Source of the DNA: Massariosphaeria phaeospora
Taxonomy: Eukaryota > Ascomycota > Dothideomycetes > Pleosporales
DNA length: 64,000 nucleotides
Direction of reading: 5' to 3'
Assembly (NCBI GenBank): GCA_011032825.1
Contig: JAADJZ010000012.1
Span: 372,001-436,000 of the forward strand
A program made the translations under genes and the position numbers. Of the stretch, positions 7,246-61,103 are shown in pieces (the first letter of the stretch is position 1; every line of letters starts with the position of its first letter). Under the pieces are notes generated by a model. That model ran no database searches and was not told where the DNA came from. It saw only the letters and a program-made list of their open reading frames with translations.

Positions 7246-7593
7246 ATGTGCACCACCCACCTCCTCACCCACACCTGCCACCACGCGCTCCTCTCCACCC
7301 TCACGCCCTGCTCTACCGCCGCCACTGCTGCCGCCGCCCCATGTCCCTTCGAAAAGACCAAGATCTTCTTCCGGAAGCTGCCCGATGACTGGTGTGCGCT
7401 GTGCGAAGCGTCGGCTGCGGTGCGGGCAAGGGCTACGGTGGAAAACGTGGAGGATAGTAGTAGGGAGGATGGCGGAAGTGGGCGTGGTAGTGCGAGGGAG
7501 GAGCGGGGAGAGGAGGAAATGGAAGACGGGGCTGGACTTTCGTGGGGGGGGTTTTGCGTGGGGGTTCCGCTGGGGGCGGGGCTGGCGCGGTAG
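7246..7593 (+). CDS. MC1: small cysteine-rich protein of the MC family
   Basis: This intronless ORF of 115 residues has no name that I recognise. It starts MCTTHLLTHTC, followed by HH, and has Cys at 2, 11, 22, 33, 50 and 53, the last two forming CALC. His12 and His13 follow the second Cys, as in MC4, MC5 and MC8. The first 60 residues carry the family pattern. The remainder is a Glu/Gly/Arg-rich low-complexity tail that may be over-extended. No signal peptide or membrane segment is seen. The start ATG sits in a CA-rich leader (cccacaATG), like the leaders of the other members. The conserved promoter and 3' block of MC4-MC7 are not found here, so this member is more distant. Confidence 0.5.
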   Translation: MCTTHLLTHTCHHALLSTLTPCSTAATAAAAPCPFEKTKIFFRKLPDDWCALCEASAAVRARATVENVEDSSREDGGSGRGSAREERGEEEMEDGAGLSWGGFCVGVPLGAGLAR

Positions 7594-7833
7594 CGAGCGC
7601 ATGGTAGCTTGGGAAAGGACGGAAGGCGATGAGGGTTGGTTGGTGTGTTTTCACGATACTGGTGGGTGGGAGTCTGGGTTTGGAGCACAGTAAGTAGATG
7701 GTAGCGAGCAAGGCAGACTGCAGTCCGCACGTCATCTATCTAGTTGATGAAAGATCTGTGATTGTTGGGTACTACGCGGCCAGTGCTTTCCGTGATGTTT
7801 CTTACTAGTGACTCACAACCAATACACTACCTG

Positions 7834-9871
7834 CTATGCGTCCAGCACAGCCGGGGCCTTCTCTTTCTTCAGCCCGGTTACGGTCTCCGTGTGCTCGGTG
7901 CCCAGATGCGCCCCATCGACGAAGAAACTTGCCACGACGCCCAGGAACGCAAACGCCGTGTACGTGATCCACATGTTGCGCGTCGCCGCAGCGAACGCCT
8001 CCTTGGCCGCCATCTCCCACGCGGGGTTCGCGAGCGTGCTCGGCAGCATGACATTCGCCATGGCGCTCTCGCCGGCCAGATCGTGCAGGACGGTTTCGGG
8101 GAGGCCAGCGGAGCGAAGCAGCTCGCCGCGGGCGTCCATGGTGTTCTGGAAGATGGTGCCGCCGATGACGACGGAGATGGTCAGCGCCAGGTTGCGGATG
8201 AACGACAGCGTCGACGTGGCGGTTGACACGTCCTGCTGCTTCACCTGGCTCTGCACGGCGATGAGCGGCGGGGCGAAAAGCACGCCGGAGCCGATGCCGC
8301 CGATCATCTGGCAGCCGATGACCGTGGCGGTGCTGGTCGACACGTCGAAGCTGATGAAGAGCCCGAAGCCGAGGCACATGGTCATGGTGCCGAACCAGAT
8401 GATCTCGCGGAAGCAGCCGGTGCGGTGCATGATGATGCCGCAGATTAGGCCGGCGATGGCGCCCGTCACGATGAAGGGGAGGAGCAGGATTCCGGATTTC
8501 AGAGGGCTGGCTTCGAGGACGGATTGGAGGAATAGGGGCATGTAGTATTCAGCCGCAATGAAGACCTGCATGTTGTGAGTCTGCGGCTAAACACAAGGGG
8601 TGCACGATTAGATAACACGGAATGATAGCACTTACAAATCCATGGAAGAAGGTTACCAGAAAAGCGGCCACGTTCGTCCTCTTGCTGAACAGTTGCATGG
8701 GGATGAGCGGATACTTGGCCACACGCGCTTCGCTGTATACAAACGCAAAGACCATGATTCCGCCGACTACCAGCAACGCAATGACTTTGCCAGAGTCCCA
8801 GGGGAAGATGGCGCCGCCGAAGTTCAGGCCGAGGCACACCATGAGCGTGAAGCCGAGGAAGGTGGTCATGCCGGCCCAGTCGAGGGCTTTGATGCCTTCG
8901 ACGAAGGATGTATGTTCGTGTTGGATGTCGAGGAAGAACATGATCAGGGCGGCGGCGAGACCGCTGATGGGCAGGTTGATGTAGACTTGAGATGGTGTTA
9001 GTAGAGGTGACGCGTCAATGTTGGGAAGATGTGGAAACTTACAGCACCATCTCCAGCTTACCAGCGAAGCAAAGACACCTCCGAGGATAGGGCCAATGCC
9101 CCCCGCCAAAGCCCAGATCCCCTCTGTGAGGCCCATGAAAAGACTCCGTTTTCTGCGGTCGTTTTCGTCAGCCATATTTCTTCTAGATACTTACGACGGC
9201 CGGCCGAACTGACCGCAAACTAAACAAGTCACTGATGCAGACGTGCACAAGCAGAATCAAGCCTCCGCCCGCCGCACCCTGGAACGCTCGCCCCACGATC
9301 AACGCCTCCATCGTCTTCGCCGTTGCGCACACAGCAGACGACGCAAAGAAGCATGCGAGTGCGAGTACGAGGATGGGCTTGCGGCCCCAGATGTCGGACA
9401 GCTTCGCCCAGATGGGGCCCGACGCGGCATTGGCGAGGAGGTAGGCGGCGCCGATCCACGTGTAGCCAGCTGCGGAGGAGAGGTCCCGGGAGATGGTAGG
9501 CGCGGCGGTGGCGACGATTGTGGCGTCTAGGGCGGCTACGAAAAGGGAGAGCTAGGGTTGTCAGTGTTGTCTGGTCGTGCATCTATTGGACAATATAATA
9601 GCGAATATGTCAAGTGGCCTTGTTGCTGGAGCCGGACAGAGTGTAAGGGAAACAAACATACGAAGAGCGCCGTCACGATGGCAAACATACGCCATGTACT
9701 TCTCCGACTCTCGTAGTTTCCCGATGGCTCCTTTATGGCACTTGTCGGTACGTCAGATGGCTCCAACTCTTTTCTTGCTCCGTGGTCTGAGGCGCTAGAC
9801 TTTATCGTCGCGTCTCGGAGACCAGAGTTTGCGGGGAGAGTCGCCAATTCTATCTCCATTTCACGCTCCAT
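7834..9871 (-). CDS. MFS efflux transporter, 14-TM DHA2/TRI12-like
   Basis: Five exons read on the minus strand: 9871-9662, 9551-9214, 9152-9043, 8985-8636 and 8565-7834. All junctions keep frame and give 579 residues, typical of 14-helix drug:H+ antiporters. Visible motifs are LDATIVATAAP (DHA2 motif D1), SDIWGRKP (motif A loop), GGIGPILGG (antiporter motif C) and FHGF-VFIAAEYYMP across intron 4. The family exports toxins, drugs or self-made metabolites across the plasma membrane. No biosynthetic cluster surrounds it, so its substrate cannot be inferred. The exon 2/3 junction (donor gtcagt, acceptor cgcag) was chosen because it gives the conserved FSLRKRSLF; the acceptor of intron 4 was chosen for the same kind of reason. 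Confidence 0.9.
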
Positions 9872-10454
9872 TGTACCTGAAAATAAAGCAAAGAACCTGA
9901 CAGACCGGTGGCACTACCAAGGAAAAGAAGTTGATGGGTTCAAACGGGCAGTAGTGGAAAGATGAAGAAAAGAAAGCTCGCGGGAGGAGCTTTGACGTTC
10001 ATCATTCATCGCCCCGCATTTAGTCTGACATGCGCGTGCGGGCCAAGAGTAGTTATTATGAGTCACACTATTTACCTAGGGCGGAAGTGTTCGTTTGAGT
10101 AACCAAGATCATTCAGTACGTATGTGGTAGACAGTGAATTGAAATCCAGTGAAAGGTGCTTTTGCAGTCTATCGAATTTGCGGTGCGCGGTCGTCTTGCC
10201 TCGAGTTGGTGGGGTGACAACGCTAGTGACGTAATAGGCTTAGACCGCTCCGCTTCTTCGCATATGGTGCTTTTGTCCTACATACCTACACGTCTTCCTA
10301 TGATTGCACCCGTCTGAACTGCACTGACTCCGTGACGACCTGATAGCGACCAGCCCCAACCCCACTCCCACCTCGCGAGCCTCTTCACCGCCGGCCCCCG
10401 ACGATGTCCCTTCAAGCCCACCCGTTTCCTTTCAACCCCTCAACTACCCCATGT
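9872..10454. other. Intergenic, no gene seen
   Basis: This region holds the upstream side of the MFS gene and the 3' side of the DUF4360 gene. Frames are short and without recognisable motifs. I see nothing further in it. Confidence 0.5.
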
Positions 10455-11209
10455 TCAGCACTTCCTCCATCCCAGATTGAGGATCTGCTTGAATCCAGAA
10501 CTCGTCGCATCGCCCGAAACCTCGCCCGCAGCCGTCGCGTTACTCGTGTTCAGCGTTGCCGACAGGCTGAGCTGGAACTTGGCGTCGACTTTGGAGCAAA
10601 CGGACTGCTCGCTTTCCGGCACTTCGTCGTCCTTGTGCAGGACGAAATCGTCTCTGAAGGGGCCGGTGAGCTTCATCTGGGTGTTTCCCTTTGAGTATTG
10701 TCAGCGGGAGACAACGAGAGCCCGACTGCAGGGTAGGTAGGAGTGTGGATCAAAGGCCGGGTCGGCGTCTCGCCTGCAATGTCTCGTACCTTTCCCTTCA
10801 TATCAGCCCCTGTGCTATCGATCCACTTCCAGCGACTGACCAAACTCGCATCCACGCCCTTCTCAATACTAATGAAGCCCTGGAAATCCACCGAGCTGAC
10901 ATCGAACGCGTACCCGGGGATGTTCATCGTCACCGTGACGCGGCAGAAAGCGCGTTTCTTCAGGCTGCCGGCTTTGGGGCCCACGCCCGCTTTGAAGCCG
11001 TCGAAGATGATAGTCATGGCCGAGTTGTCGCGCGCAAACGCGACGCCGATGGTCCCGGGCCGGCAGCCGCTGCCTTCGCTGTCGGCTTCCGGTTCCACGG
11101 TGATGACTTTGGGGACGCCGGTGGGGGGTCGTATGGGGGCGGCTTGGGGCCGTGCCGCGGCAATGGCAGCCCAGAGGGCGAGAAGACCTGTTGTGAGAAG
11201 AGGGAGCAT
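10455..11209 (-). CDS. Secreted DUF4360-family protein
   Basis: Two exons, 11209-10790 and 10688-10455, are joined across a 101 bp intron with donor gtacga and acceptor caaag, giving 217 residues. A signal peptide is clear (MLPLLTTGLLALWAAIAAARP). The mature part has the DUF4360 layout: CRPGTIGVAFARDNSAMTI near the start, a Cys in RAFCRVTVTMNIPGY, and a late Cys in QSVCSKVD. An N-glycosylation site (NTSN) lies near the C-terminus. DUF4360 proteins are small secreted fungal proteins without a known biochemical role. An alternative acceptor a few codons downstream (cccag) would also stay in frame. Confidence 0.8.
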
Positions 11210-12355
11210 GGCGTTTTGCGGCTAGGCGTCAGATGGAAATTATTCTCGCTGTTGACGACGATCCGCCGACATATATCTCTACCTCGCCTACGACCCAAAC
11301 ACCATCCTTCGTACTCGGCCCCGATGTTGAGGTTCGTCAGCTTTTAGAAGCACAAGCATTCCATCCTTCGACCGTTCCCCAGTTACACTGTATGCACTCA
11401 CTCTACCCACTCCCAAGCCCTTTCCACGGACCCGCGCCATACCTCGATGCATGCCACGCGTTTCCGCTTGAAGGTACCACGCACCCAACCCAGCGGCTCT
11501 CGATCCTGTCCGATTCTCATCGCGTATCAAGTAATATCAGTTCACTAAGAAAAGGCAGAATGTAGATTTAGCCGATTCGGTACATCAACGACTAGAAACA
11601 AATTATACCCAACAGCCGATGATTGTGCTGACAGCGACGCAGACGGTTACACAACTGCCGATATACAACCAAGGTACCGCTGTATATATCCTATTCCAGC
11701 CATGTTACAGCGCCGTGAACTATGGTTTGTGCAGGCATATCCCTTCGACGCTGACGCCTGCACGTCGGGCGGCTTGCTACATTTGAACTGCGGTATCTTC
11801 AAGCTTAGCTTAGCCTACGCTCCTTCTTGCGTACGTAACATGTGGCGATTTACTGATGCGCATACTCGTGCATGCCACGGTACACAAGGTCTCCAGCTCG
11901 GTTGCTCGACTGCCTAGCGGTGGACAACTCACACGTTGCCAAGTAAGCGCTATCAGTCTTGACTCAACTCAACTCAACTCAACTCCCCTCCACTCCCTGT
12001 TGAATTGTGGACCTTCAATAGCCACGCCACGCTACATTGAGCAAGAGGAGTCAATCAAATCAATTCTCGTCGTAGCATCCACTCACTAACTTTTTGCGTA
12101 ACCCGCCGATGCTTTGTGCTTTGTCAGGGAACCAGACCAGAACAGAAGCGAACAGAGCTGAATAAACTAGTCGCGCAAAGTAGCAAAAAAAGAAACCCAA
12201 AGCGCTACCTAGCGACATAAACGCATAATTCAACGCACACAAAAACGCTAAAAAAGGCTACACAGCTCTTCTCTACCACTACTATTCCCTCTCTCTCTTC
12301 TCCCTCTCCTCCCCAATATCGATATCCAGTATCAATCAGTCAACCCCCTCTCTCC
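11210..12355. other. Intergenic, ACTCA tandem repeat, no gene seen
   Basis: No convincing coding frame is present. A short (actca)n run preceded by TGACTCA lies near 11957-11985. Pyrimidine-rich sequence near 12260-12400 lies downstream of the small minus-strand ORF MC2. Confidence 0.5.
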
Positions 12356-12574
12356 TCACTCCTCTCTCCTCCTCTCCTCCCTCCTGCCCCTCCCCCTCGC
12401 AACCAACAGCCTCCCCAACGCCGCCTGACACTCATCACACAACTCGAACTTCAAAAACTCCTTCCTATCCTCACATTTCGCGGGTATGGCGTCGGCGGAG
12501 CAGGCCTCGACTTCGGTGGTCATGACGTGCTGCGGGCAGGCGCACGAGTGGCGCAGCGTGGTGAAGGTGCACAT
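12356..12574 (-). CDS. MC2: small cysteine-rich protein of the MC family
   Basis: This intronless ORF of 72 residues is on the minus strand. It starts MCTFTTLRHSC and has Cys at 2, 11, 13, 25, 34, 46 and 49, the last pair as CDEC. It ends in an Arg/Glu-rich tail. The Met-Cys start is chosen over an in-frame upstream ATG at 12715 because it matches the other members and because the upstream part is a Thr/Pro-rich leader. A TATTTATA-like box lies about 150 bp upstream (12730 region). No secretion signal is seen. The function is unknown; the Cys pattern suggests metal binding, by inference only. Confidence 0.55.
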   Translation of the reverse strand: MCTFTTLRHSCACPQHVMTTEVEACSADAIPAKCEDRKEFLKFELCDECQAALGRLLVARGRGRREERRREE

Positions 12575-12747
12575 TGTTGTGGATGGGGATGTGGTGGGTG
12601 TGATGAGGTAAGGTGAGGTGGGTGCAGGGCTGTAGTTAGTGATTGGTGTCGTGGTGTCGTGGTATAGATATAGGTGCAGTGTCTGATGTGAGTGAGTGTT
12701 TAGGGTTTCTTGCATTCTGACCTGGTGGCTATTTATACTGGAGCTGG

Positions 12748-12782
12748 TCTGTATCTGTATCTGTATCTGTATCTGTATCTGT
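12748..12782. repeat. (TCTGTA)n microsatellite
   Basis: About six tandem copies of a TCTGTA hexamer lie just upstream of the MC2 TATA-like box. Confidence 0.85.
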
Positions 12783-13264
12783 GTCGTGGCGTGTCGTGTC
12801 GCTTTCCGTACAAGTTACGTTACATTGGCTGTGAAGTGAAGCTGCACACTACCTACAAACTGTGCGTACGGAAAGTAAGTATCCAGCCCCCTGATTCAAC
12901 TTCCAACACGCCGTCTTCACATTCATTTCCAAAAAATTCCCCAGTCCTCATTCATTCCTCCACTCAATTACATTACTCACCTATGCACTTATCTCATTCC
13001 TTCCTTCCTTCACTCACGCGTTCATTCATTCCCCTATTCAACTATTTTGTTCAAATTTCCTCTCCTCGTCAATCCATCCATCTCTCTACACGCCCAGCTG
13101 GAATTTCGCACCTACCTCCCTACCTTTAAACCCCAGCGTCAGAAATCTTAGACTCAACTCAACTCAACTCAACTCAACTCTTCGTACCAAACCGCACAGT
13201 AGAAACCCCAAAATCCACATAATTCTCTCTCTCTCTTTTCCTTTTACCCTCTCTCACCCTCTCC
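12783..13264. other. Intergenic with ACTCA tandem repeat before MC3
   Basis: No gene is seen. An (actca)n run of about six copies lies at about 13152-13180, roughly 90-110 bp upstream of the MC3 start codon. A CT-rich tract follows at 13223-13262. Confidence 0.5.
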
Positions 13265-13453
13265 ATGTGCCTCACAACAACCCACATCTACACCTGCGCC
13301 CCCGCGCACACAACCACGACCTACTCGCCCTGCGCCTCCCCCCGTACGTGCCGCCGTCGCCAAAGAGCAATAGTTCAGGAGCGGCGCAAGTGCGAGCGGT
13401 GCGCTGGCTGTAAACGCATGTTCTGGCGCGTGTGGAAGAAGGCCTTCTGTTGA
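13265..13453 (+). CDS. MC3: small cysteine-rich protein of the MC family
   Basis: This intronless ORF of 62 residues starts MCLTTTHIYTC and has Cys at 2, 11, 23, 29, 43, 46, 49 and 62, including CERCAGC. It is basic: the stretch around residues 27-42 is full of Arg. There is no signal peptide. It resembles MC2 most (Thr-rich start, third Cys at 23-25) and lacks the flanking blocks of MC4-MC7. The family assignment rests on the Met-Cys start, the exact C2-C11 spacing and the C-terminal CxxC. It could be a chance ORF, but the shared spacing argues against that. Confidence 0.5.
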   Translation: MCLTTTHIYTCAPAHTTTTYSPCASPRTCRRRQRAIVQERRKCERCAGCKRMFWRVWKKAFC

Positions 13454-13594
13454 GGGAGGGACATGAGAAAAAAAGGATTCACACTTTAACATGAGACGCT
13501 GTGGTGGGGGACTAAACTGCATGCTGGGTTAACCACGCCCTGCTCTCCAGCTCAGCTCAGCGCAACGCAACGCAGCCTGAAATATACTCCATTC

Positions 13595-13596
<2 letters not shown>

Positions 13597-13629
<33 letters not shown>
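13597..13629. repeat. (CA)n microsatellite
   Basis: An uninterrupted CA dinucleotide run of about 33 bases. Confidence 0.95.
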
Positions 13630-13631
<2 letters not shown>

Positions 13632-14599
13632 CGTCTCCTTCCTCTCATCCACCTGCCCCACCATCTGCTTTACCCATCTGCTGAGCACCGTACGAAATCT
13701 CGTGCTGCCAGTTTCAGTCCGTTCCGTTCATTGATCGACTAGGTTTTGTGATTCGATTCGCGCGACGCAGATGGCGGAACATGTGGCGCGAACGAGATTC
13801 AGGACGAAGGGGATATGTGTAGGCGAGATGATGACGTCGATGGTGACGCTGATGTGCGCCTTGTGGTTTGTTTTCAGCGTGAGCTGAGCTGAGTGGGTGG
13901 TTTGGTTTGTTCTGTGAAGCGCGCTCTCAGAACCATGGTTCGTTACGATCTATCACTTCTATAAACGTTCGATTGCCCTCGTGTTGTTTCCTACTTCGAC
14001 CTGCCGATTTGTTAAACCAAGCCTGTACACTTCTGACGTCCCATTTCTTACCAATTATTAGTGACCTGGTTCGTACCCCTTTATCACGTTTACTTCGCTC
14101 CATCTTGAGATGAAGTATAGGAGTCTGCATCTTACTTCTAGCAGATCGAGTATTAATGGTATGTATGTCATACACATAGCCATGTCTCACATTCTGCTCC
14201 GGTGAAGCCTCCGCGGAATCGGAAGGTGCGAAAGGACCAAAAACGCGGGTTTTGTCAGCAACGTTCGAATGGTTACTATCTTTGTTGATAGCACTCAAGC
14301 AAGGAAATAGCTTCTCCTTACTGTCTCTCTCTTCAGTGTTTCTCGTATTGCCCAGCGTGCTCGAATCGTTTGGGCGAACAGCGAACATGGCGATTAATCA
14401 ATGACCTGTCAGACATATCTTCCTATCTTATCATCAATATTGTCAAGCACGCATAGAACAACTCCTCCTTACCGCCTCTCTTCGCTCTGCAAAGCATCTC
14501 GTCTTTCTCCAACAAACTTCCCCGGGTGCTCGAATCGGCTGGGCCCGTGGCCGATAGATGCATTCGTTGCTGACGGCGGGCGGGCCAAGACCAGAAGCG
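13630..14599. other. Intergenic, no gene seen
   Basis: The longest frame (minus strand, 13927-14388) has no recognisable motif and no family match that I can name. Otherwise I see nothing. Confidence 0.45.
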
Positions 14600-14810
14600 G
14601 ACGGAGTCATTGGGACTCACGATAGAGTCATTAGGAGCTAAACTCACGGTAGAGTCATTAGGAGTCAAACTCACAGTAGAGTCATTAAGACTCCGACCCC
14701 CAATAGAGTCATTAAGACTCCGACTCCCGATACAGAGTAGAGTCATAGCCCATATAAATACAGTACAGCTGTCCTGTTTGCTTCTTCGCCAGAACACCAC
14801 ACTTTCTACT
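14600..14810 (+). promoter_or_regulatory. MC4 promoter: GAGTCATTAGGA array plus conserved core
   Basis: Seven GAGTCA motifs (complement TGACTC, the Gcn4/CpcA recognition core) occur in about 145 bases, in a repeating context tagagtcattaggagtc. The array is followed by a TATA-like box in catataaata (14751-14760) and then a block, agtacagctgtcctgtttgc and following, that recurs before MC5, MC6, MC7 and MC8. The array also recurs in inverse orientation before MC7 (25376-25700). Regulation by amino-acid starvation or another bZIP factor is an inference from the motif alone. Confidence 0.65.
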
Positions 14811-15028
14811 ACCAAATACCATGTCTTACTCCAAATCTCGATCCAAATTCGCACTGCGCACCAAAACCTCATACTACTCCACACATTATCTCCACAAAAC
14901 CAACATCCTCACGCCAGCAAATCCACCCGTCGATCGAAACTGCGACTCGCCTCCTACCAAGCGCATCACAAACTGACCAACCTACCAACCTACCAACCTA
15001 CCAACCAACCCCAACCAGCCAATCCAGA

Positions 15029-15340
15029 ATGTGCAAAAAGTACGAGCAAGAATTCGACTGCGGCCACAAAGCGGTCACCTGGGACCCCTGCCGGAGAATG
15101 ACGGGCATAGTCAAAGTCGAAGATAAGAGAAAACACCACATGTGTGAAGACAACGAAACCGTCATATGCAAGAAATCTCTGAAGAAAGAGCCGGTGTGTG
15201 AAAAGACTAGCCTGGAGTGCAATGAGTGTGAACGCCGCAGGGAGAGGAGGAGGGAGAGTAGCGGCGAGAGTGGCAGCGAGAGTAGCAGCGAAAGTGGCAG
15301 CGAAAGTGGCAGCGAGAGTAGCAGCGAATCAGACGGCTAG
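15029..15340 (+). CDS. MC4: small cysteine-rich protein with Ser/Glu tail
   Basis: This intronless ORF of 103 residues is of unknown function. Cys lies at 2, 11, 21, 39, 47, 57, 64 and 67. The opening MCKKYEQEFDCGH gives C2-x8-C11-x-H13 and then C21, the exact spacing also found in MC5 and MC8. The central ETVICKKS matches GAIIC in MC5, QGIIC in MC7 and GAVVC in MC8. CNEC forms the terminal CxxC. From residue 68 a basic patch (RRRERRRE) leads into repeated SGSES/SSES units, an acidic disordered tail absent from the other members. No signal peptide is seen. The leader just before the ATG carries tandem ccaacctac repeats. The product is likely intracellular and metal-binding (inferred). Confidence 0.75.
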   Translation: MCKKYEQEFDCGHKAVTWDPCRRMTGIVKVEDKRKHHMCEDNETVICKKSLKKEPVCEKTSLECNECERRRERRRESSGESGSESSSESGSESGSESSSESDG

Positions 15341-15449
15341 GCGAATCGGGGAGCTATGCGGCGGCGGCAGCGTAAGCGCTGGAGATGCTAGGGGACATAA
15401 TCTAGCGTGAGAGAGGATTTTGGAGACTAGGTTACTGACGGGTAGAGCA

Positions 15450-15660
15450 AGGATTGGGTTTGCGTTTGGGCGTTCTGGTTCTGAGTATCGGCTTGCCCTA
15501 TGTAGGGGCTCGACAGTGTACGATAGGACGACCTAGCGACAGGTGTAGGATTTCCTTTGCTTCTGTGTTTCTTTCAGTGCTTGTATGCTTTCTCTCTTGC
15601 GTATATTAGTATTAGGTTGCGATGTATATAGATCAATAACGAGTACGAGACCATGACCTG
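15450..15660 (+). repeat. MC 3' block, copy A (after MC4)
   Basis: This noncoding block follows MC4. It contains gtttgcgtttgggcgttctg, ttgccctatgt, tgtacgat and ctagcgac in that order. The same series appears inverted after MC7 (24661-24790) and, more diverged, after MC6 (16905-17145). It ends with a T-rich part and gatgtatatagatc, which also occurs after MC6. It is probably the 3' untranslated and terminator region of the gene cassette. Confidence 0.7.
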
Positions 15661-15679
15661 ACTAAGTTACAGTAGCAGG

Positions 15680-15745
15680 GAAGACTCACATACGTATACA
15701 AAGACCAGCACGACTGCCTCTTGACTTCCTTCATCACCACCGCAT
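15680..15745 (+). promoter_or_regulatory. MC5 core promoter
   Basis: The block gactcacatacgtatacaaa followed by gaccagcacgactgcctctt matches the core promoters of MC4, MC6, MC7 and MC8 in order and spacing. It lies about 180 bp before the MC5 ATG. Only one GACTCA motif precedes it. Confidence 0.6.
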
Positions 15746-15917
15746 CCACCACAGACAAGTATTCGCAGACCGAAGAGCTTTCCTACTAGAAACCCTCGCC
15801 TAGCTAAACATACCATTCATCAAACGCACCGCCATCCGCGCGCCATCACAGCAAAACACTACAGCCACCGCCTTACCGACCACCTGCCCTACATCCATAC
15901 CAGCCAACTACTCCACG

Positions 15918-16124
15918 ATGTGCATAAAATTCCTGGTACGGTACTACTGCGAGCACGAAGACATCGAATACGCACCCTGCGCCACGGCCAGAAACCGAAC
16001 AACAGAAGATGGCAAATACGTCAATATCAAGGGAGCCATCATATGCACGAGCGCTACGACGAGCACACCTAGACCCAGGAACTGGATCAGAAATTGCGAA
16101 GTGTGCGCTGAGTCCGACCACTAG
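15918..16124 (+). CDS. MC5: small cysteine-rich protein of the MC family
   Basis: This intronless ORF of 68 residues has Cys at 2, 11, 21, 43, 60 and 63. It opens MCIKFLVRYYCEH with H13, has the central GAIICTSA and ends NCEVCAESDH (CxxC at 60-63). This is the most compact member and best shows the six-Cys core with one His. There is no signal peptide or membrane segment. The next promoter unit (MC6) begins about 115 bp after its stop. A partial 3' block (gactgacgggtagggcgagg, 16216 on) is shared with MC4. MC4, MC5 and MC6 are tandem cassettes on the plus strand. The function is unknown. Confidence 0.7.
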   Translation: MCIKFLVRYYCEHEDIEYAPCATARNRTTEDGKYVNIKGAIICTSATTSTPRPRNWIRNCEVCAESDH

Positions 16125-16239
16125 CTGGGGTGCTTGCTGTGTGGCTCGCCGCTCGGGTGGTAGCACATGCTGGGGGAATCAATCAAGCGCGAGGCTGGGG
16201 GATGGAGATTATGTGACTGACGGGTAGGGCGAGGGTTAG

Positions 16240-16350
16240 AGTGAACTGGGAGTCATTAGCACTCATAACAATGAAGAGTCATACCCCATACAAATACCAG
16301 TACGATTGCCCCTTTACTCCTTCCCCAGTCCACTACACTTGGATATTGAG
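16240..16350 (+). promoter_or_regulatory. MC6 core promoter with two GAGTCAT motifs
   Basis: GAGTCAT occurs twice (near 16250 and 16277). It is followed by catacaaatacc and agtacgattgcccctttac, the same series as in MC7 (acaaatacgagcacgattgc) and MC4. The block lies about 220 bp before the MC6 ATG. Confidence 0.6.
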
Positions 16351-16563
16351 TATTAGATTCTGCACCCCAAATCCGGAACCAAATCTACCTCCAGTTTCGA
16401 ATTGAAGCCTCGAATTCGAATCATCGAAAGCATACCGAGTCCCTGCTTGACGCACGCACCTGGTGTTACTCCCACTTGCACCAATCAACACCAGCCCCAA
16501 CCATACTTCCACACCGAACCAACCACGAAGCGCAAACCTCCCCATCCACCCAACCAACCAGCC

Positions 16564-16845
16564 ATGTGTCGCCGCATCCAAAACACCTTCGTTTATTGCT
16601 CCACTGAGGCCAGAAAAAAAACGGGCCACAACGGTACCTACACAACCTTCAAGCAGTGCGATATTGCGAAAGCCAAATCTGAGCCAGACAACAAACTTTA
16701 CGTGAGGCATCCATACGACAACAAGATCTACTGCCTTAACGATTTCTACGGAAAGCATACTGGTTTCAACGACATCGATGCTTTCTGTCCGGCTTGTGAT
16801 GCGGTGGAGTGGGACAAAATGCCGAAAATGCCCTATTCGGGCTGA
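16564..16845 (+). CDS. MC6: small cysteine-rich protein of the MC family
   Basis: This intronless ORF of 93 residues starts at the Met-Cys codon pair rather than the in-frame ATG at 16402; the upstream part is a Pro/Thr/His-rich leader that contains the CA-rich sequence typical of the other leaders. Cys lies at 2, 12, 32, 57, 75 and 78. The centre reads NKIYCLND and the end FCPACDAVEW. The spacing between the second and third Cys is longer than in MC4, MC5 and MC8. A run of seven A codes for the Lys-Lys near residue 19. The product has no signal peptide and its function is unknown. It is the third of the tandem plus-strand cassettes. Confidence 0.72.
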   Translation: MCRRIQNTFVYCSTEARKKTGHNGTYTTFKQCDIAKAKSEPDNKLYVRHPYDNKIYCLNDFYGKHTGFNDIDAFCPACDAVEWDKMPKMPYSG

Positions 16846-16904
16846 GGGAGGCAGAACTGGGGGCTTGAGGGGTCCGGAATCATAGTCGGACCGGGAGGGA
16901 GAGG

Positions 16905-17145
16905 CATAGGGCGAGGTAATAGCTTAGGTTTTCGTTCGGGCGTTCGTGTTTATGGTATTAGACTGCTGTGCGTGGGAAACGGCAGTGATGTGTACGGGCT
17001 GACAGTGTACGATCGGAGATCTGTCGTCTGCGGACGGGAGTGGAATTTCCTTTGCTTCTGTATTTCTTTCTAGTTCCTTTGTACTTTCTTGCTTCTGTAC
17101 AATAGTACTAAGTTGTTATGTATATAGATCGAGAACGAGTAGATA
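16905..17145 (+). repeat. MC 3' block, copy B (after MC6)
   Basis: This is a diverged copy of the block after MC4: cgttcgggcgttc, ctgacagtgtacgat, gaatttcctttgcttctgta and gttatgtatatagatc appear in the same order. The far part (from aatttcc on) is closer to copy A than the near part is. Confidence 0.65.
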
Positions 17146-17708
17146 GACTGACATTCATTTACAGCGGATATCTCCGCGCAGTCACAGCGACATATGGTTC
17201 CTCCTCTTTCTTCTTCTGTGACTCATTGCGCCTCCACTCACTGATCAGGTCTGGGTCTGATCGGCTCTCTTGGATCCCGAAAACATAAAATCTCACATCG
17301 GACTCCTACACGTAGGCCTTCTGTGCTTGTGGTGCACCAGGTGTCGATTTCAACCTGCACTCGTTGCCATTGAGCAGGCTTTTTGGCCTGCACGGATCTG
17401 AGACTTTCGGGGTTCGAGCGAGTGGCGGCGTGAGTAATGCGTAGAGAGTGACTGGTTTCTCTCACCTTGGATGTCCATGTTGGCTGGATACTATCTTGGA
17501 TGGTGGCGTTGAATGGGAGTGCGGTGTTGCAGGTGGATTTAGGCGATGGAGCACGCTAGCACCTAAACCGGCAAGGCGCGCCGCACACGGAAACCCCACC
17601 ACGACGAAAAAGCCATCGCAGGTCGAACTTTTCACTCGACCATCGACATTTTTGACATCCACGTCCACTCCGAACCTTAGAAGAGATTGACCACCTCTCG
17701 CACTAGCC
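17146..17708. other. Intergenic, promoter side of the uL11 gene
   Basis: No gene is seen. The stretch directly before 17709 is the 5' side of the ribosomal protein gene, with a pyrimidine-rich run and the leader ending cactagccATG. Confidence 0.5.
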
Positions 17709-18413
17709 ATGCGTGAGTATCATCCTTCTGAGCAGCCGCGGCGGCCTGGCTAAATGCAGCGCAGCTCCCAAGTTCGATCCCAGCGAACTCAAGGTCATCC
17801 ACCTGCGCGCGACCGGTGGTGAAGTCGGTGCCTCGTCCGCACTTGCTCCCAAGATCGGTCCTCTTGGTCTCTCGCCCAAGAGTGAGTGCTCCGATCCTAA
17901 TATGGTACAGTTGGAATGCTCGCTAACGCTGCGCAGAGGTCGGTGAAGATATCGCCAAAGCCACTGGCGACTGGAAGGGCCTCGTACGTCGCACTGCACC
18001 TATTCACTGGAATTCTGCTGACTCCCACACAGCGCGTCACCGTCAAGTTGACCATCCAGAACCGTCAAGCCGCCGTCTCCGTCGTTCCCTCGGCCTCGTC
18101 GCTCGTTATCAAGGCCCTCAAAGAGCCCCCGCGGGACCGGAAGAAGGAGAAGAACATCAAGCATACCAAGAGCATCCCGCTCGAGGAGATCATCAACATT
18201 GCACGCACCATGCGCTTCAAGTCGATGGCCAAGGACCTGAAGGGCACCGTCAAGGAGATTCTCGGCACAGCGTTCAGCACCGGCTGCCAGGTCGATGGCC
18301 GCAGCCCCAAGGCCGTCACTGACGATATCGAGTCTGGCGAGATTGAGAGTACGTATTTCTGAAGATGAACACCAGATTCCGCCTTCTAACATGTCGCAGT
18401 CCCCGAAGAGTAA
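17709..18413 (+). CDS. RPL12: 60S ribosomal protein uL11 (L12)
   Basis: Five exons: 17709-17712, 17765-17881, 17937-17983, 18033-18348 and 18400-18413. They give 165 residues, the standard length of eukaryotic uL11. The first exon is only four bases (ATG plus C); joined to CTCCCAAG it yields the conserved MPPKFDPSE start. The third exon is 47 bases. Conserved segments are [30 protein letters not shown] and the C-terminal [11 protein letters not shown]. The last exon adds only Ile-Pro-Glu-Glu. The protein forms the base of the ribosomal stalk in the GTPase centre. It is a housekeeping gene between the MC cassettes. Confidence 0.95.
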
Positions 18414-18833
18414 ACGTTTGTTACACAGCGGAGGATACCAGTCGCATGTTACGCATGGCTATGAAAAGCGAGACGTAGTTCAATGACAAACCATATTCCA
18501 TATCCCGGGGCGCTCAATCGGTGCCGCTGGCAGGATGCCCGGCTTCGGCGTTGGGGTGGGCATCTAACGACTGGCCCTTAGATGGGTTCGGTTCGGTTCA
18601 GGTCAACAAAAAATACATCGTTGGCCATGGCGTCTTGAAGCCACATCTTTCGCATGCATGACTCTGCTATGTTGTTCTACTGTGCCTCCAAATGATTGCG
18701 ATGGATCCATGCATGCTGTGATGGCACGTGACTGGCGGCGGTCGTCACCTCCGAGAACTCCGCAGCTCCCCTGAAATTGCGGTGCGCTCACCTTTGCCAA
18801 CATGAAGCCCTCCACCCATCGCCCGACGGTACT
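18414..18833. other. Intergenic, no gene seen
   Basis: This holds the 3' side of the uL11 gene and the promoter of the GT8 gene. An in-frame ATG at 18777 would extend the next gene by 19 residues but lacks the basic and hydrophobic order expected of its N-terminus. Confidence 0.45.
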
Positions 18834-20206
18834 ATGCGTCGGAGACGCTCCGATGACCTCCCGCGCTTCGTAAAAGACCACGAACCCCCTCCGTTCCACT
18901 CCCGATGGCGCCGGCGCTACGGCCTGTATCTGGTCGCCGTGTTCTTCGTGTGCTGGATCCTGTACCCAGCCCGCTCGACAGGTGCTGCCGATGGAGACGG
19001 TGCGCCAGCGGTCAAATGGTCCAAGTACGCATATAGCTTGTATGCGACGGACAGTGCGATGCTCTGCCATGCCGTGCTCATCTTCGACGCGCTGGCCGAG
19101 TATGGCAGCAAAGCAGACCGCGTCCTCTTCTACCCGGAGTACTGGGACACGGCGGTGTCGGACTCGAAGGACAGGGACAGCCAGCTGCTCGTCATGGCTA
19201 GAGACACGTACAAAGTCAAGCTGCAACCGATCCAGATGCTGACGGTCGAGGGTCGGACGGCAGGTACGTCGCACACCCCCGCCGGTGCCAATCTCATCTC
19301 CTCTCCCTCGCTCTCTACTTGCGTGGCAACTCACAGGGCGGAACTGACATACACCTTGCAGACGAGTGGACGGGCACTTGGGACAAGACGGTCAGCAAGC
19401 TCATGGCCTTTACCCTGACGCAATACGACCGCGTCATCGCCCTCGACTCGGACATCACGCTGCTGCAGCACCTCGACGAGCTGTTCCACCTCCCGCCGAC
19501 GCCCATGGCCATGCCGCGCGCATACTGGCACAAGACGAAGCCGTGGCCGCTGACGTCGCTGCTGATGGTGCTGCAGCCCAGCCTGGACGAGTTCCTCCAC
19601 TTCAAGAAGCTCATTGCGCGCGGCGGCAACGAGGCGCTCGTCGCGGCGCACAAGTTCGATCTGGAGCTCGTGAACGAGCGCTTCGAGGACAGCGCCATGG
19701 TGCTGCCGCACCGCCCGTACGCGCTGCTGTCCGCCGAGTTCCGCGCGCACAACCACAGCGCGTACCTAGGTGGTGACAGCGGCGAAGAAGCCTGGGACGC
19801 GAAGACGGTGCTCGAGGAGGCCAAGCTCGTGCACTTCAACGACTGGCCGCTGCCCAAGCCGTGGATCATGTGGCCGCAGGAAGGGCTCGCCGCTGTGCAG
19901 CCCGACTGCGGCTTGTCGCTGCTGGAAACGTGCATGGAGCGCCGGCTGTGGAAGGGCTTGTATGAGGACTTTCGCAAGCGGCGGCGCGACGTGTGTCGGC
20001 TGCTGAGTGTGCCGGCGCCCGAGTGGACGCGCATTCAGGGCGGCGGCGGCGAGCAGGACCAGCAGCAGCTTGCGAATATCACCGAGGGCACGCATCATGA
20101 GGCGCCGCCTGTCCCGGGCGAAGGTGAGGCGGAGCCGGAGGTGAAGGCGGCTTCGGGCGAAAGCGAGAATGGTGAGGGTGAGCGTGAGCGTGCGAGCCCG
20201 GCGTGA
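18834..20206 (+). CDS. GT8-type glycosyltransferase, type II membrane protein (GNT1-like)
   Basis: Two exons, 18834-19263 and 19362-20206, are joined with donor gtacgt and acceptor ttgcag, giving 424 residues. A short basic cytosolic N-terminus (MRRRR, RWRRR) precedes one membrane anchor at about residues 30-44, so the enzyme is probably Golgi-resident with a lumenal catalytic part. The DxD metal/sugar-nucleotide motif is DSD at about residues 172-174, preceded by YDRVIAL as in glycogenin-like GT8 enzymes. LVHFNDWPLPKPW matches the conserved late region. The C-terminal tail from about residue 380 is Glu/Gly-rich low complexity. Similarity to fungal glucose N-acetyltransferase is likely; the exact acceptor is unknown. 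Confidence 0.82.
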
Positions 20207-23957
<3,751 letters not shown>

Positions 23958-24660
23958 GGGAAGGGATCGCGTGAGATGTGTGAGTGGGGGAGTGAGTGAG
24001 ACGACAGAGATTGATTGTATCTGGGTGTCGGCACGGCACTGCGTATGTGGAGGTGCAGACGATGGACCACGATGATGGTGCGAGGTACTTGGTACTTTAC
24101 TTACTCACTTGGCTACTTATCATCTATCTATATTGTAGACAGATGGCTAGTATCTATGTCGACGGAGAGCCTCCTTGTTTGGTTTCAATTCTTGTAGATA
24201 GATATACCCCCCAATTCAATTCGGTTCAGTTCAGTTCAGTTCAGTTCCATTCTGCAATGTTCCGTTCCGTTTCATGCAGTCACGGTCCTATCTATTCATC
24301 AGTTTCTTCTGCTGCGCTGCTATGCTATGCTATGCTATGCGGATAGTCTAGTCTCCAGTCTTTACTTGTTTATTTGTTTATTTGTTTGTTTGCGAGGTTA
24401 GTTTTTGACGTTGTCGGATAGCTCTGATGAAGTTGGGTCGTGTTAAATGAGTGACCGGACCGGAGAAAGAGGAAGAACCATTCAAGGATTGTGAGTGAGG
24501 CTATCTACTCGTTATGGGTATATCATCTATACACATGGCAACCCAACCCAACCCAACTTCGGTACTGGACTGGACTGGTGTACAGAACCGAGAAAGGATA
24601 CAGGTAAGAGGGGAAATACAAGAAGCAAAAGGAAGAGAAATACAGAAAGGAAAGGAAAGG
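23958..24660. other. Intergenic with short tandem repeats
   Basis: No gene is seen. Short repeats include ttcagttcag near 24224-24246, tgctatgctatg near 24318-24340 and tttgtttattt near 24367-24391. Confidence 0.5.
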
Positions 24661-24790
24661 GTGCACACCCGTCGCTAGATCATCTCATCGTACAGTGTTG
24701 AGCCACCACATAGGGCAACTCGATACTCCGAACCAGAACGCCCAAACGCAAACTCACGCCCGAGTCCCTTGTCCTACCCGTCCGTCCGTC
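24661..24790 (-). repeat. MC 3' block, copy C (after MC7, inverted)
   Basis: Read on the minus strand this block follows MC7 and matches copy A after MC4: gtttgcgtttgggcgttctg, then gagtatcg, ttgccctatgt, tgtacgat and ctagcgac. By eye there are about 13 mismatches in about 90 aligned bases and no clear gap. It is more alike than the coding parts of MC4 and MC7. Confidence 0.75.
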
Positions 24791-24801
24791 CGTCACCCAT
24801 C

Positions 24802-25092
24802 CTATTTCCACCACGCATGAGTGCGGCCTGAGGGTTGCATCTCTCTCGCTCGCGACGAGTTGTAGTTGCCGGGACACCCGGAGCCAAGGGGGCACATATC
24901 AATGGTACGTTCTTCCTTATCATGCTCACGCTGCAGGGCGCTCCTACATATGATTCCTTGGCCATCGCCTGTCTGGTGGTATTTGCCTTTGTCGAATTCG
25001 GTTCCAGCTAGGGATTTCACTGTGTCGCAGCATTCGTAGGTGAGTGGTTTGCAACTGCAGCCGCTGTATTTTGTGCGGATCTTCGTGCACAT
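24802..25092 (-). CDS. MC7: small cysteine-rich protein of the MC family
   Basis: This intronless ORF of 96 residues is on the minus strand. It opens MCTKIRTKYSGCSC and has Cys at 2, 12, 14, 21, 22, 49, 67 and 73. The centre QGIICRSAL matches ETVICKKSL of MC4. The usual terminal CxxC is here widened to C-x5-C (MCPLGSGC). The leader directly before the ATG contains tandem cgcacctac repeats, comparable to the ccaacctac repeats before MC4. The promoter array and 3' block are shared with MC4. There is no signal peptide and the function is unknown. The cassette is inverted relative to MC4-MC6. Confidence 0.74.
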   Translation of the reverse strand: MCTKIRTKYSGCSCKPLTYECCDTVKSLAGTEFDKGKYHQTGDGQGIICRSALQREHDKEERTIDMCPLGSGCPGNYNSSRAREMQPSGRTHAWWK

Positions 25093-25299
25093 TGTCGAGG
25101 TTCGTAGGTGCGTAGGTGCGTAGGTGCGTAGATACGTAGGTTGGCAGGTTGATAGGTTCGTAGTTCGTGATGTGATGGTGGTAGTGGTTTGCCGCAGGAG
25201 GGTTTTGGCAGACAGATAGATGTTTGTTCGGCGCGAGGATGTCTGTTTAAGAGAAAAGACTTGTGTAGTGGTCGAAACTGGCAGACTTAGATTGGAATG

Positions 25300-25705
25300 T
25301 GGTATTCAGTATTCAAAAGTGTGGTGTATTGGTGAAGAAGCAAAGAGGCAATCGTGCTCGTATTTGTATAGAGATTGACTCCTTATTATTGTGAGTCCGG
25401 CTCCTAATGAATCATCTATCGTGAATCCTAATAACGCCATCGTGAGTCCTGATGGGTCTATCATGAGTCCTAGTGACTCTAACGTGAGTCCCAATGACTC
25501 TATCATGAGTCCTAGTGACTCTAACGTGAGTCCCAATGACTCTATCGTGAGTCCTAATAACTCTACCGTAAGTTAATGACGCCGTCGTGAGTGTCAACGC
25601 CATCGTGAGTGCCAACGCCATCGTGAGTGCCAACGCTGTCGTGAGTCCCAATAACGCCGTCGTGAGTGCCAACGCCGTCGTGAGTCCTAATAACTCCTAG
25701 TCTTA
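25300..25705 (-). promoter_or_regulatory. MC7 promoter: TGACTC tandem array plus conserved core
   Basis: From about 25376 to 25705 the plus strand is a tandem array with unit gtgagtcctaatgactctat (about 20-24 bases) and many variants; five intact TGACTC cores occur, with others decayed to taactc. On the minus strand this is the same motif as in the MC4 promoter. Nearer the gene, the minus strand reads atacaaatacgagcacgatt, then gcttcttcaccaatacacca, the core shared by MC4-MC8. The core lies about 220 bp before the MC7 ATG. The distal edge of the array reaches the 3' side of MC8. Confidence 0.7.
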
Positions 25706-25864
25706 GCGTCCCAAGGTATGCTCTCGTGTCCGTGCTGTGCTTCTACGTGCCAGCGCCCACTGGTGGCTCCTGCCACACTGACTAAACCCCCGCCGCACCG
25801 CACCGCACCACACCTCCATCCCCACCTCCATCCCCAACCCCATCGCACACCCCTCCCCTCACCC

Positions 25865-26098
25865 CTACCACGCATACGGCTGCGAACTCCTCTTCCTATA
25901 CACACACGTCCAGCAGAACTCCGGCGCCTCATGAACCTGCGTCGGCACCATGAACGCCGCCCGACAGACCACAGCGCCCTCGCTGTTATGGACAAAGATT
26001 GTTCCGTCGACGGGCGGGTTTGCGCGCGCTCGGGGGCAGCGGATCCAGCCTTGGTCTTGGTGGGAGCAGAGGTAGCGCGTGCGGGTGCGGATGCACAT
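25865..26098 (-). CDS. MC8: small cysteine-rich protein of the MC family
   Basis: This intronless ORF of 77 residues is on the minus strand. The Met-Cys start at 26098 is chosen over an in-frame ATG at 26299, whose extra part is a Thr/Pro/His-rich leader. It opens MCIRTRTRYLCSH, so C2, C11 and H13 match MC4 and MC5 exactly, followed by C21, GAVVC (C45) and FCWTC (C62, C65). The C-terminus is basic and aromatic. There is no signal peptide. It lies directly upstream of MC7 on the same strand, as a second inverted cassette. The function is unknown. Confidence 0.7.
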   Translation of the reverse strand: MCIRTRTRYLCSHQDQGWIRCPRARANPPVDGTIFVHNSEGAVVCRAAFMVPTQVHEAPEFCWTCVYRKRSSQPYAW

Positions 26099-50725: not shown

Positions 50726-51263
50726 TGTGGATGATGTGGTGGGTGGTAATGTCGGTGAGGTATTGGTGTTGTTCGCCTTTGCAAGTGTAAACTACAGGTG
50801 TAGACTGGATTTGAGGGTATTTAGGTATGCGATGGCCATGGCTTTATACTCGGTATTGAGTGTGCCGTCGCACACGGCCGGGCTAACCCAATACAGGCCG
50901 CGAGCCACATCACCTCAGAGAAGTTGTGCGCAAAGCTGAAACTTTCTGCGGTGAGCCTATTTGACACCTCACCTCACAGCAATATGCGGAATAAAGAATG
51001 GCCAAGCAGTAAGCTTGTTTCGGGCCAACGAAGTTCGAACTAGTTCATGAGATTGTATGAGATGCTTCGATTCTTTCCGATAATCAGACCATTGCTGTTT
51101 GTTCGCTCTGTTCTTCCTGCAAAGCATATCCCTAGGAACTACCTTCACCTAACAGCTTGTTCTTCACCGTCTCTCCTTCCTAGAGCACAGTTCTCAGATA
51201 CTGCTTGAAGCGAGGACATGCAGTCAAATAAGAAGAACTACAATCTTACGACATGCAACACTA
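50726..51263. other. Gene/transposon boundary, no gene seen
   Basis: This is promoter side of the GST gene. The Pogo element starts at 51264. From here on the composition becomes AT-rich. Confidence 0.5.
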
Positions 51264-51361
51264 CCGTGTCCGTGCACCCAATGCACGGATTCAGCCAATG
51301 CACGCCGAACACCAAACACGTCAAAACTCCCTAATCTTCAACACGCGACAACTCCACCACT

Positions 51362-53033
51362 ATGGACCCTATTCAGGCTGCAATTGATGAAATCGAATTG
51401 CGAAAGCCAGGAGAAGATTTCTCATATACAGAAATTGCTACTAGACGTGGTGTCGATCGCAGTACACTATCGCGAAGACACCGAGGTGTTACAGCGTCGC
51501 GTGCAGCTACTGCAAACAATCAACAAAAGCTCAACCTACAGCAAGAGCAGGAGCTTGTGCGATATATCAAAGGACTTACAAAGAGACATATACCTCCTAC
51601 AAGAGAGATGATACGAAATTTCGCATCAACAATAGCTAAAGAGCTAGTCAGCGAGAGCTAGGTTACCCGCTTTATCAACCGACACAGCATTCATCTCATA
51701 TCACAATGGACAGTCGGCATGGACAGCAATCGCCACAAAGCTAATTTAGAGAATAAATATCGCCTCTACTTTCATCTTCTACACAGCAAGATTGAGCAAT
51801 ATCAGATAGATCCTCGTCATACCTACAATATGGACGAGAAAGGCTTCCTAATCGGCATTATTGGTAGATCAAAGAGGATATTTAGTAGACGAATGTGGGA
51901 GAAGAAGGAGGTTAGGGCATCAATCCAGAATGGAAATTGTGCATAGATTACGCTCCTAGCATGTATATGCGCTGATGGATCTGCTCTGCCTCCAAGCCTT
52001 ATCTATAAAGCTGCCAACAAGGGCATTCAATCAAGCTAGGTAGACGATATCCAGGCAGGAGAACACCTAGTCTTTATCACCTTATTACTATCTGGCTGGA
52101 CGAACAACGATATTAGACTTGCTTAGCTTGAGCAGGTGTTTGATCGCTGTACAAGAGAGAAAACCCAACGATCCTATTAACTCTTAATCCTAGATAGCTA
52201 CGAATCCTATATCACTATGGATTTTATCGACTACTGTGATTAGAACAAGATTCTTCTTGCTATTCTACTTCCTCATTTGACTTATACGCTTTAGCTACTC
52301 GATGTAGCAATGTTCAAGCCTCTATCAACTGCCTACTTAGTAGAACTATCAAACTACTTTCAAACAAGCCAAGGTCTCTTTTCTATTACTAAAGGCGACT
52401 TCTTCTTACTATTCTAGAAAGCGTAGGAAACCTCCTTTAAAGAATCAACAATTTTTAGCTCTTTTAGAGCAACAGGCATATCACCTCCTAATTCTAATCT
52501 TATCCTTAATAGATTCACCAAAACTCAAGAATTAAAAGAAAACTCTTTATTATTACTTAGCGATTATGATTGGAGAAATATAGATAGGCTTGTACGCTTT
52601 GTAGCAAGTAATTAGAGTAGTAAGAATACACAAAAGCTTCGTCAATCGCTCTACTACTAATCTATTCAAAATGACCTACTTAAGCATGAGATAGATAGTC
52701 TTAAGCAGGCTCTATCTATTAAGAAAAAGCGTAAGAAAAAGAGCAAAGCTCTAGACTTTCAACAGCGCTAGGAGTATCATAGTAGAGCTATTTTCTAGTT
52801 ACCAAGGAAAGTAAAGGAAGCACGTGTTCGTTAGTCAATCAAAGAGTAGGAAAATTAGGAGCAGCAACTTTAAAAAGCAGAGACAGCAGAGCTAAAGAAG
52901 GCAGCTAAGCTGTACAAAAAGAAAATTGCAAAAGAAAAGCGTGTAGCGCGGGAAGCAGCTAAGGTAGCAAAAGAGAAAAAGAAAGCAGAAAAGGCAGCAG
53001 AACGCGCTCGCTAGAAGAAAGCTCGCGACGCTA
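51362..53033 (+). pseudogene. Degraded Pogo transposase of element 1
   Basis: The reading frame starts MDPIQAAIDEIELRKPGEDF with a helix-turn-helix (YTEIATRRGVDRSTLSRRHRG), then CENP-B-type DNA-binding residues (ELVRYIKGLTKRHIPPTREM). After a stop at 51660 come the DDE segments: HTYNMDEKGF (first Asp), LLILDSYESYI (second Asp) and LLDVAMFKPLS. Well over ten in-frame stops interrupt it, nearly all TAG, as expected from CAG to TAG changes under RIP. The Lys-rich C-terminal region is cut at 53033 by element 2 and resumes at 55169-55356 (ALQLFLQSKKRYKRSVD..). It is non-functional. Confidence 0.88.
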
Positions 53034-58058: not shown

Positions 58059-58224
58059 TTATCCCCCTCTTTAAGGATATCGTCTCGATAGCTGCCCTGC
58101 TGTGCCGTGCCGGTTCTTTCCGTGCCTTGCATCAAAGGTGCCTTTTCGTATAAGAGTAGGTCGACCCCGATCTCCGTCGTGTCGTAACTTTCTTTTGTAT
58201 TCTTTCGAGTCTTAGAGTCTAACC

Positions 58225-61080: not shown

Positions 61081-61103
61081 AGAAGAACAAAGTTGTTCGA
61101 CAG

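Follow-up and report, generated by a model that had tools for sequence, protein, structure and literature searches.

A 64,000-nucleotide stretch of Massariosphaeria phaeospora DNA (contig JAADJZ010000012.1, positions 372,001 to 436,000; hereafter the window) carries eight small open reading frames (ORFs), MC1 to MC8, and raises the question of whether they are genes of one family and, if so, what kind of protein they encode. A first-pass annotation, made from the sequence letters and an ORF list, had described them as a family of intronless Met-Cys proteins with a fixed six-cysteine layout. All eight start where it had placed them, have the sizes given, 62-115 codons without in-frame interruption, and begin with Met-Cys (8/8; Table 1, in which a minus-strand ORF starts at its higher coordinate). 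New beyond that annotation is promoter and 3' flanking DNA common to several of the genes, and the strongest new fact is a set of duplicated cassettes in which the flanks are recognisable and the coding parts almost unrecognisable.

The gene neighbourhoods were compared by blastn with the window and with 200 kb of comparison DNA from the same genome, 180 kb of which flank the window and 20 kb of which come from two other contigs. On the 3' side, MC4 matched MC7 over 121 bp (82.6% identity, E 7e-28), MC6 over 153 bp (75.8%, E 2e-22), and MC5 over 71 bp (73%, E 5e-5). On the promoter side, matches were obtained for MC4-MC7 (219 bp, 69%, E 6e-16, minisatellite included), MC6-MC7 (102 bp, 75%, E 3e-13), MC4-MC6 (67 bp, 78%, E 4e-6), MC5-MC7 (59 bp, 76%, E 2e-5), and MC5-MC6 (37 bp, 84%, E 0.001). 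Flank homology is found on the 5' side of MC4, MC5, MC6, and MC7 and on the 3' side of MC4, MC6, and MC7, together with a short piece at MC5; for MC1, none was found in the window or the 200 kb. This flanking DNA shows MC4 to MC7 to be homologous. Models built from the flanks recovered their own members over the 264 kb, and neither of the next best matches (E 0.43 and 0.023, the latter in L011) was convincing; the match at E 0.43 is the MC5 3' flank (16202-16235), found with the 3' flank model. Genome-wide DNA searches with the MC7 flanks, which missed MC6 and hence are insensitive, returned the MC4 3' flank alone for the 3' flank and nothing else for the promoter. Two short matches were set aside: upstream of MC2 and MC3, a pentanucleotide simple repeat that matches over up to 30 bp, and, for the MC7 region, 21 bp shared with L013, taken for a simple repeat or chance.

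TATA-like boxes also lie upstream of MC2 (TATAAATAG, 163 bases before the start) and MC8 (TATATATGC at -206), and no TATA[ACT]A was found within 400 bases upstream of MC1 or MC3. Earlier in-frame ATG codons of MC2 (12715) and MC8 (26299) were put aside as starts because boxes at about 12737 and 26304 would leave them no space for a leader, a judgement made on position alone. The minisatellites near MC4 and MC7 carry GAGTCA/GGACTC units; they may mark points of duplication or act as promoter arrays. GAGTCA-type motifs look like part of an AP-1/Gcn4 site.

Protein relationships were assessed with leave-one-out profiles, each left-out member being ranked among 3230 open frames. Trained on the other four of MC4 to MC8, the profiles placed MC4 (E 1.8e-6), MC5 (E 1e-6), MC7 (E 1.6e-8), and MC8 (E 1.8e-6) at rank 1, and training on all seven others gave E values of 2.3e-5, 3e-7, 3.3e-7, and 9.3e-6, respectively. 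Searches of the genome (42.08 Mb, 51 contigs) with single members, in part trimmed (MC1 1-69, MC2 1-55, MC4 1-69, MC7 1-86), scored first-look candidates alone, one to four per query, and further members elsewhere are possible. Within that scope, the sole other match of MC8 was MC5 (E 6.2e-4), that of MC4 was MC7 (E 0.0079), and that of MC7 was MC4 (E 0.058); MC5 matched MC8 (E 6.3e-4) and two weak, stop-containing sequences (E 0.012 and 0.34). The best genome matches of MC4, MC5, MC7, and MC8 are cluster mates. No other match was obtained in this search with MC2 or MC6, and the weak matches of MC1 (E 0.63) and MC3 (E 0.54 and 0.58) do not begin with Met-Cys. By their protein sequences, MC4, MC5, MC7, and MC8 are assigned to one family. 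Membership of MC6, which ranked first with the profile trained on the seven others (E 0.0042), is supported mainly through its flanking DNA. Among MC4 to MC8, amino acid identity is 19-30%; in their alignment (A3), the initial Met and six Cys columns are invariant, and all five frames are open. The proposal that all eight form one family stands for MC4 to MC8, by profile and flanks; MC1 to MC3 failed the profile test; they probably represent proteins of similar type, the similarity lying in the layout alone.

That layout is less uniform than first described. The cysteine total is 6, 7, or 8 rather than a fixed six. The next Cys after Cys2 is indeed at residue 11 (six ORFs) or 12 (MC6 and MC7), a C-terminal CxxC is present in seven ORFs with C-x5-C in MC7, and MC4, MC5, and MC8 do have identical C2-C11-H13-C21 spacing. 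A third Cys at 21-32 holds except in MC2 and MC7, where a CxC brings it to residue 13 or 14, and a central Cys after two hydrophobic residues, reported for most, occurs in MC4 to MC8 (5/8) but not in MC1 to MC3. The word "intronless" has the open frames as its whole basis. A C-x-[H/C] at the second Cys occurs in 6/8 ORFs and the terminal CxxC in 7/8.

The layout exceeds chance. A strict version (Met-Cys, Cys at 11 or 12, a further Cys, and CxxC, which excludes MC7) was found in seven window ORFs, the eight minus MC7, versus none in the 200 kb of comparison DNA and none in 60 order-2 Markov simulated copies of the window; the patterns for these scans were written after the finding was known. 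The window contains 17 ORFs of 45-160 aa that start with Met-Cys, versus 41 for the 200 kb; of these, 10 and 4, respectively, have Cys at 11 or 12, the ten being MC1 to MC8 and two minus-strand frames at 2569-2811 and 20989-21129. A looser scan for MC...C-x-[H/C] returned six window frames, all within MC1 to MC8; the 200 kb yielded two (L014:2359 and L017:4876). Synonymous codon choice, scored with a table trained on 1124 codons of three neighbouring genes and using only 69 residues each of MC1 and MC4, exceeded a random-synonym null at 52% G+C in 8/8 ORFs (z 1.8 to 4.8), with 4.5 for MC1 (residues 1-69) and 4.4 for MC3. That the frames are chance ORFs is highly improbable, given the layout counts and the homology and common promoters of MC4 to MC7, even if the frames are short and MC1 to MC3 are backed by layout alone. 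By judgement, chance is barely credible for MC4 to MC8, and for any one of MC1 to MC3 it is unlikely, though well short of negligible.

The contrast between flanks and coding parts was quantified by global identity, given as 3' flank, 5' flank, and coding DNA: 0.76, 0.65, and 0.50 for MC4-MC7; 0.64, 0.51, and 0.38 for MC4-MC6; and 0.56, 0.59, and 0.44 for MC6-MC7. The flanks are more alike than the coding DNA in all three pairs (Fisher p 1e-9 to 8e-3 in six comparisons, with sites treated as independent). The coding identity of 38-50% lies near that of a shuffled control, in which MC4 coding sequence against MC7 gave a mean of 0.43 and a maximum of 0.47 (30 shuffles, coding part only, the flanks being without such a control). 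This contrast suggests diversifying selection on the coding parts.

With moderate confidence, we interpret the locus as a set of duplicated cassettes for small intracellular, probably zinc-binding proteins that are diversifying around a Cys/His skeleton. MC4 to MC8 would be copies of one small intronless cassette, consisting of promoter, leader, coding part, and 3' flank, that was multiplied locally, in a single chromosomal region of this Pleosporales fungus. After duplication, the coding part would have diverged, with Met-Cys and the later cysteines as the main residues retained; in MC4 to MC7, promoter and 3' flank would in part have remained recognisable as DNA. Within the cell, the product would form a small domain that binds metal, with zinc most likely bound at C11-x-[H/C]13 and the terminal CxxC; C2, C21, and the hydrophobic-hydrophobic-Cys element may complete or stabilise the core, and the loops between the cysteines may form a fast-changing binding surface. 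Met1, preceding a Cys, would be a substrate for Met aminopeptidase, and its removal would expose Cys2 as a ligand or reactive site.

The maximum ten-residue Kyte-Doolittle mean within the first 35 residues is 0.20-1.11 for MC1 to MC8, versus 2.40 and 2.10 in two neighbours whose starts are of secreted type. The claim that signal peptides are lacking is borne out by this hydrophobicity measure alone, no trained predictor having been used. Because a hydrophobic N-terminus is lacking, the proteins most likely act inside the cell, and the cytosol is the location suggested; in the cytosol, spaced cysteines with C-x-[H/C] and CxxC are likelier to be metal ligands than to form disulfides. The small zinc-binding fold is therefore plausible; we infer expression, zinc binding, and a binding role.

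The hydrophobicity values bear as well on the possibility that these are non-classical effectors, exported despite having no signal peptide and directed at a host or a competitor, which would account for their fast change. Small size, a cysteine pattern, clustering, strong divergence, and the lack of relatives in the protein set searched would all suit this, and there is a precedent in the Pleosporales: in Pyrenophora tritici-repentis, small secreted Cys-rich proteins are described as tandemly duplicated and then diversified (PMC3538342). As small Cys-rich paralogues that arose by tandem duplication and diversification, the two sets are alike in description; the P. tritici-repentis proteins are predicted to be secreted, whereas the MC proteins start with Met-Cys and have no hydrophobic N-terminus. 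The earlier view that they are not classical secreted effectors agrees with the N-terminal test, and the eight ORFs occupy 7-26 kb, where the neighbouring genes are of ordinary types, outside the AT-rich stretch at 51-64 kb. We regard a role as non-classical effectors as unlikely.

Storage or detoxification of metals in the manner of metallothioneins is a still less likely use for the cysteines. Fungal metallothioneins are small, Cys-rich, and intracellular, with dense CxC/CC clusters. The MC proteins, with 6-8 Cys per 62-115 residues and a probably intracellular site, are alike in the former respects, but most members are without dense CxC/CC arrays: their cysteines mostly stand singly apart from one CxxC, CxC is confined to MC2 and MC7 and CC to MC7, and conservation at non-Cys positions suggests a fold. 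Equally doubtful is a role in redox or oxygen/nitric-oxide sensing, in which Met would be removed and Cys2 oxidised, leading to destruction through a Cys/Arg N-degron. Cys2 is present in 8/8, and a Met-Cys N-terminus is the start of that degron in plants (PMC11773813); to the plant proteins ERF-VII, VRN2, and ZPR2, the likeness shown is in the Met-Cys N-terminus alone. The reading is somewhat weakened by the search of this genome for the PCO/ADO thiol dioxygenase (PF07847), in which the best score was 14.2 bits versus a cut-off of 27, with exons read singly and introns unmodelled; the 14 control genomes likewise gave no score above the cut-off, which leaves this search without a positive control.

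Several results weigh against our preferred reading of diversifying zinc-binding cassettes. MC6 lacks the C-x-[H/C] at its second Cys and, with a profile trained on MC4, MC5, MC7, and MC8, ranks only fifth (E 2.4). With training on MC4 to MC8, MC1 ranked 13th (E 9.7) and MC3 26th (E 18), and MC2 was not listed; with training on seven, MC1 ranked first (E 0.17), MC2 51st (E 23), and MC3 11th (E 3.7). For MC8, blastn against the window and the 200 kb found no flank homology beyond the minisatellite. TATA[ACT]A lies upstream of 5/8 genes, with about 2/8 expected at the window rate of 0.73 per kb. The raw codon score against uniform use is below zero in 5/8 ORFs (MC2 and MC4 to MC7), and the third-position G+C (GC3) of MC4 to MC7, 0.61-0.65, is lower than the 0.85-0.89 of the three training genes. 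Finally, a sequence on another contig (L005, C1:561036-561185) resembles residues 6-59 of MC5 (E 0.012) about as well as MC4 and MC7 resemble each other. It has two in-frame stops, lies in a kilobase of G+C 0.45, and is possibly a decayed relative or a chance match.

The substitution pattern belongs to the same side of the balance. By the Nei-Gojobori method over whole coding parts, the proportions of nonsynonymous and synonymous differences (pN/pS) are 0.49/0.49 for MC4-MC7, 0.48/0.51 for MC4-MC5, and 0.51/0.52 for MC5-MC7, so that pN does not exceed pS; for the seven pairs that have diverged most, pS lies at 0.66-0.91, close to saturation or past it, above the pN values of 0.53-0.59. When the start and the shared Cys columns are left out, pN exceeds pS in 6/10 pairs, mostly slightly, and is lower in 4/10. 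The Cys columns are kept, and the remaining residues change at about the silent rate. Because silent sites have also changed more than the 3' flank, the case for diversifying selection falls short of proof; constraint may have been relaxed, and regulatory conservation or homogenisation may be what keeps the flanks alike. A related explanation holds that MC4 to MC8 are true duplicates whose coding parts decay without selection and whose flanks are alike through gene conversion. The near equality of pN and pS in MC4-MC7, MC4-MC5, and MC5-MC7 is what such decay would give, but five open frames with Met1 and six Cys columns invariant would not be expected of it, and we consider it improbable.

Table 1. 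Coordinates of the MC genes, their flanks, and associated minisatellites in the window.
Feature	Position	Strand	Length (aa)	Cys positions	Remarks
MC1	7246..7593	+	115	2,11,22,33,50,53,104	layout only; low-complexity C-terminal half
MC2	12356..12574	-	72	2,11,13,25,34,46,49	C11-A-C13, CDEC, charged tail
MC3	13265..13453	+	62	2,11,23,29,43,46,49,62	layout only
MC4	15029..15340	+	103	2,11,21,39,47,57,64,67	C2-C11-H13-C21, VIC47, C64xxC67, RRERR + SE-repeat tail
MC5	15918..16124	+	68	2,11,21,43,60,63	C2-C11-H13-C21, IIC43, C60xxC63
MC6	16564..16845	+	93	2,12,32,57,75,78	IYC57, C75xxC78
MC7	24802..25092	-	96	2,12,14,21,22,49,67,73	C12-S-C14, IIC49, C67-x5-C73
MC8	25865..26098	-	77	2,11,21,45,62,65	C2-C11-H13-C21, VVC45, C62xxC65
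Minisatellite upstream of MC4 TATA box	14614..14732				GAGTCATTA-type units
MC4 promoter + 5' leader	14739..15028	+			TATAAATAC at -276; related to MC5, MC6, MC7 counterparts
MC4 3' flank	15341..15645	+			blastn, flank alignment
MC5 promoter + 5' leader	15691..15917	+			blastn, alignment
MC5 3' flank piece	16167..16237	+			73% identity to MC4 3' flank (E 2e-5 to 5e-5)
MC6 promoter + 5' leader	16275..16563	+			carries ATACAAATACC
MC6 3' flank	16846..17145	+			related to MC4, MC7 3' flanks
MC7 3' flank	24502..24801	-			related to MC4, MC6 3' flanks
MC7 promoter + 5' leader	25093..25390	-			TATACAAAT at -278
Minisatellite upstream of MC7 promoter	25415..25694				21-bp + related units; related to MC4 array

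The absence of a named family, as first reported, agrees with all database searches made. None of the eight proteins was above the Pfam cut-off; an AF-4 match of MC4 (E 2.7e-4, 20.8 bits versus a cut-off of 26.9) came through its repetitive tail, in which a 12-bp (36-bp) tandem repeat at window positions 15237-15328 encodes an SE/SG-rich stretch. NCBIfam, a prokaryotic library, gave no significant match (best E 0.022), and the MC4-MC8 profile found nothing at E<=10 among PDB sequences. Against 5.8 billion proteins, MC5 alone returned no candidate, and an alignment of all eight (A1) returned 4017 candidates, none at E<=10, which is weak evidence since the alignment is poor and the size of the database demands a high score. 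As a control, the neighbouring GH20 protein matched 2298 proteins in this set, the top one among the best 120 at 79% identity and 99% coverage; the named sources among these 120 are largely Pleosporales, and the set therefore includes that order. On the basis of the GH20 relatives listed, we place the source fungus in the Pleosporales and assume that the set contains no very close relative. Titles and abstract beginnings of open-licence literature, searched without synonym matching, mention no Met-Cys family of such layout, which leaves its absence from print unproven. Many unnamed Pezizomycotina proteins begin MC...Y.CGH, with Met-Cys, a C-x-H near residues 11-13, and a terminal CxxC, and the broad Met-Cys type may therefore be widespread without bearing a name; none of them was returned by the protein searches.

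Outside the cluster, none of the five weak genome matches (L005, L006, L034, L036, and L037) starts with Met-Cys, and the four other than L005, at E 0.34-0.63, were taken as chance. A plus-strand frame of 55 aa (L017:4876-5043), lying to the left at some 15 kb from the window start and 22 kb from MC1, has Met-Cys, C11-G-H13, and Cys at 24, 30, 44, and 49, scores only 3.5 bits with the profile, and looks like a candidate further MC protein. A second plus-strand frame of 57 aa (L014:2359), with Met-Cys and C11-G-C13 but no terminal CxxC, is a further candidate or background.

In the surroundings, five of ten neighbouring ORFs scanned were above the Pfam cut-off, matching POM152 nucleoporin, an MFS transporter, DUF4360, a ribosomal protein L11 domain, and a GH20 hexosaminidase. 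The ORF at 27247 has a P-loop-like motif and is without a Pfam match. The G+C content falls to 0.32-0.49 at window positions 51000-64000, which is likely a repeat-rich block; at the right edge, from 63614 on, one frame resembles a retrotransposon reverse transcriptase/RNase H.

Coding DNA that outpaces its own flanks is characteristic of proteins engaged in arms races, venoms and secreted effectors among them. A bolder proposal, which we offer tentatively and consider rather unlikely, is that the MC genes are a hypervariable intracellular recognition family, in which common-promoter cassettes would encode cytosolic zinc mini-proteins that keep the Cys/His skeleton and diversify their exposed loops. 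If true, this family would be like immune or self/non-self systems, but without secretion. Such divergence without a signal peptide would point to a role in conflict or recognition inside fungal cells, or to an unseen export route, and the common flanks would offer a practical handle on further members that protein searches miss.

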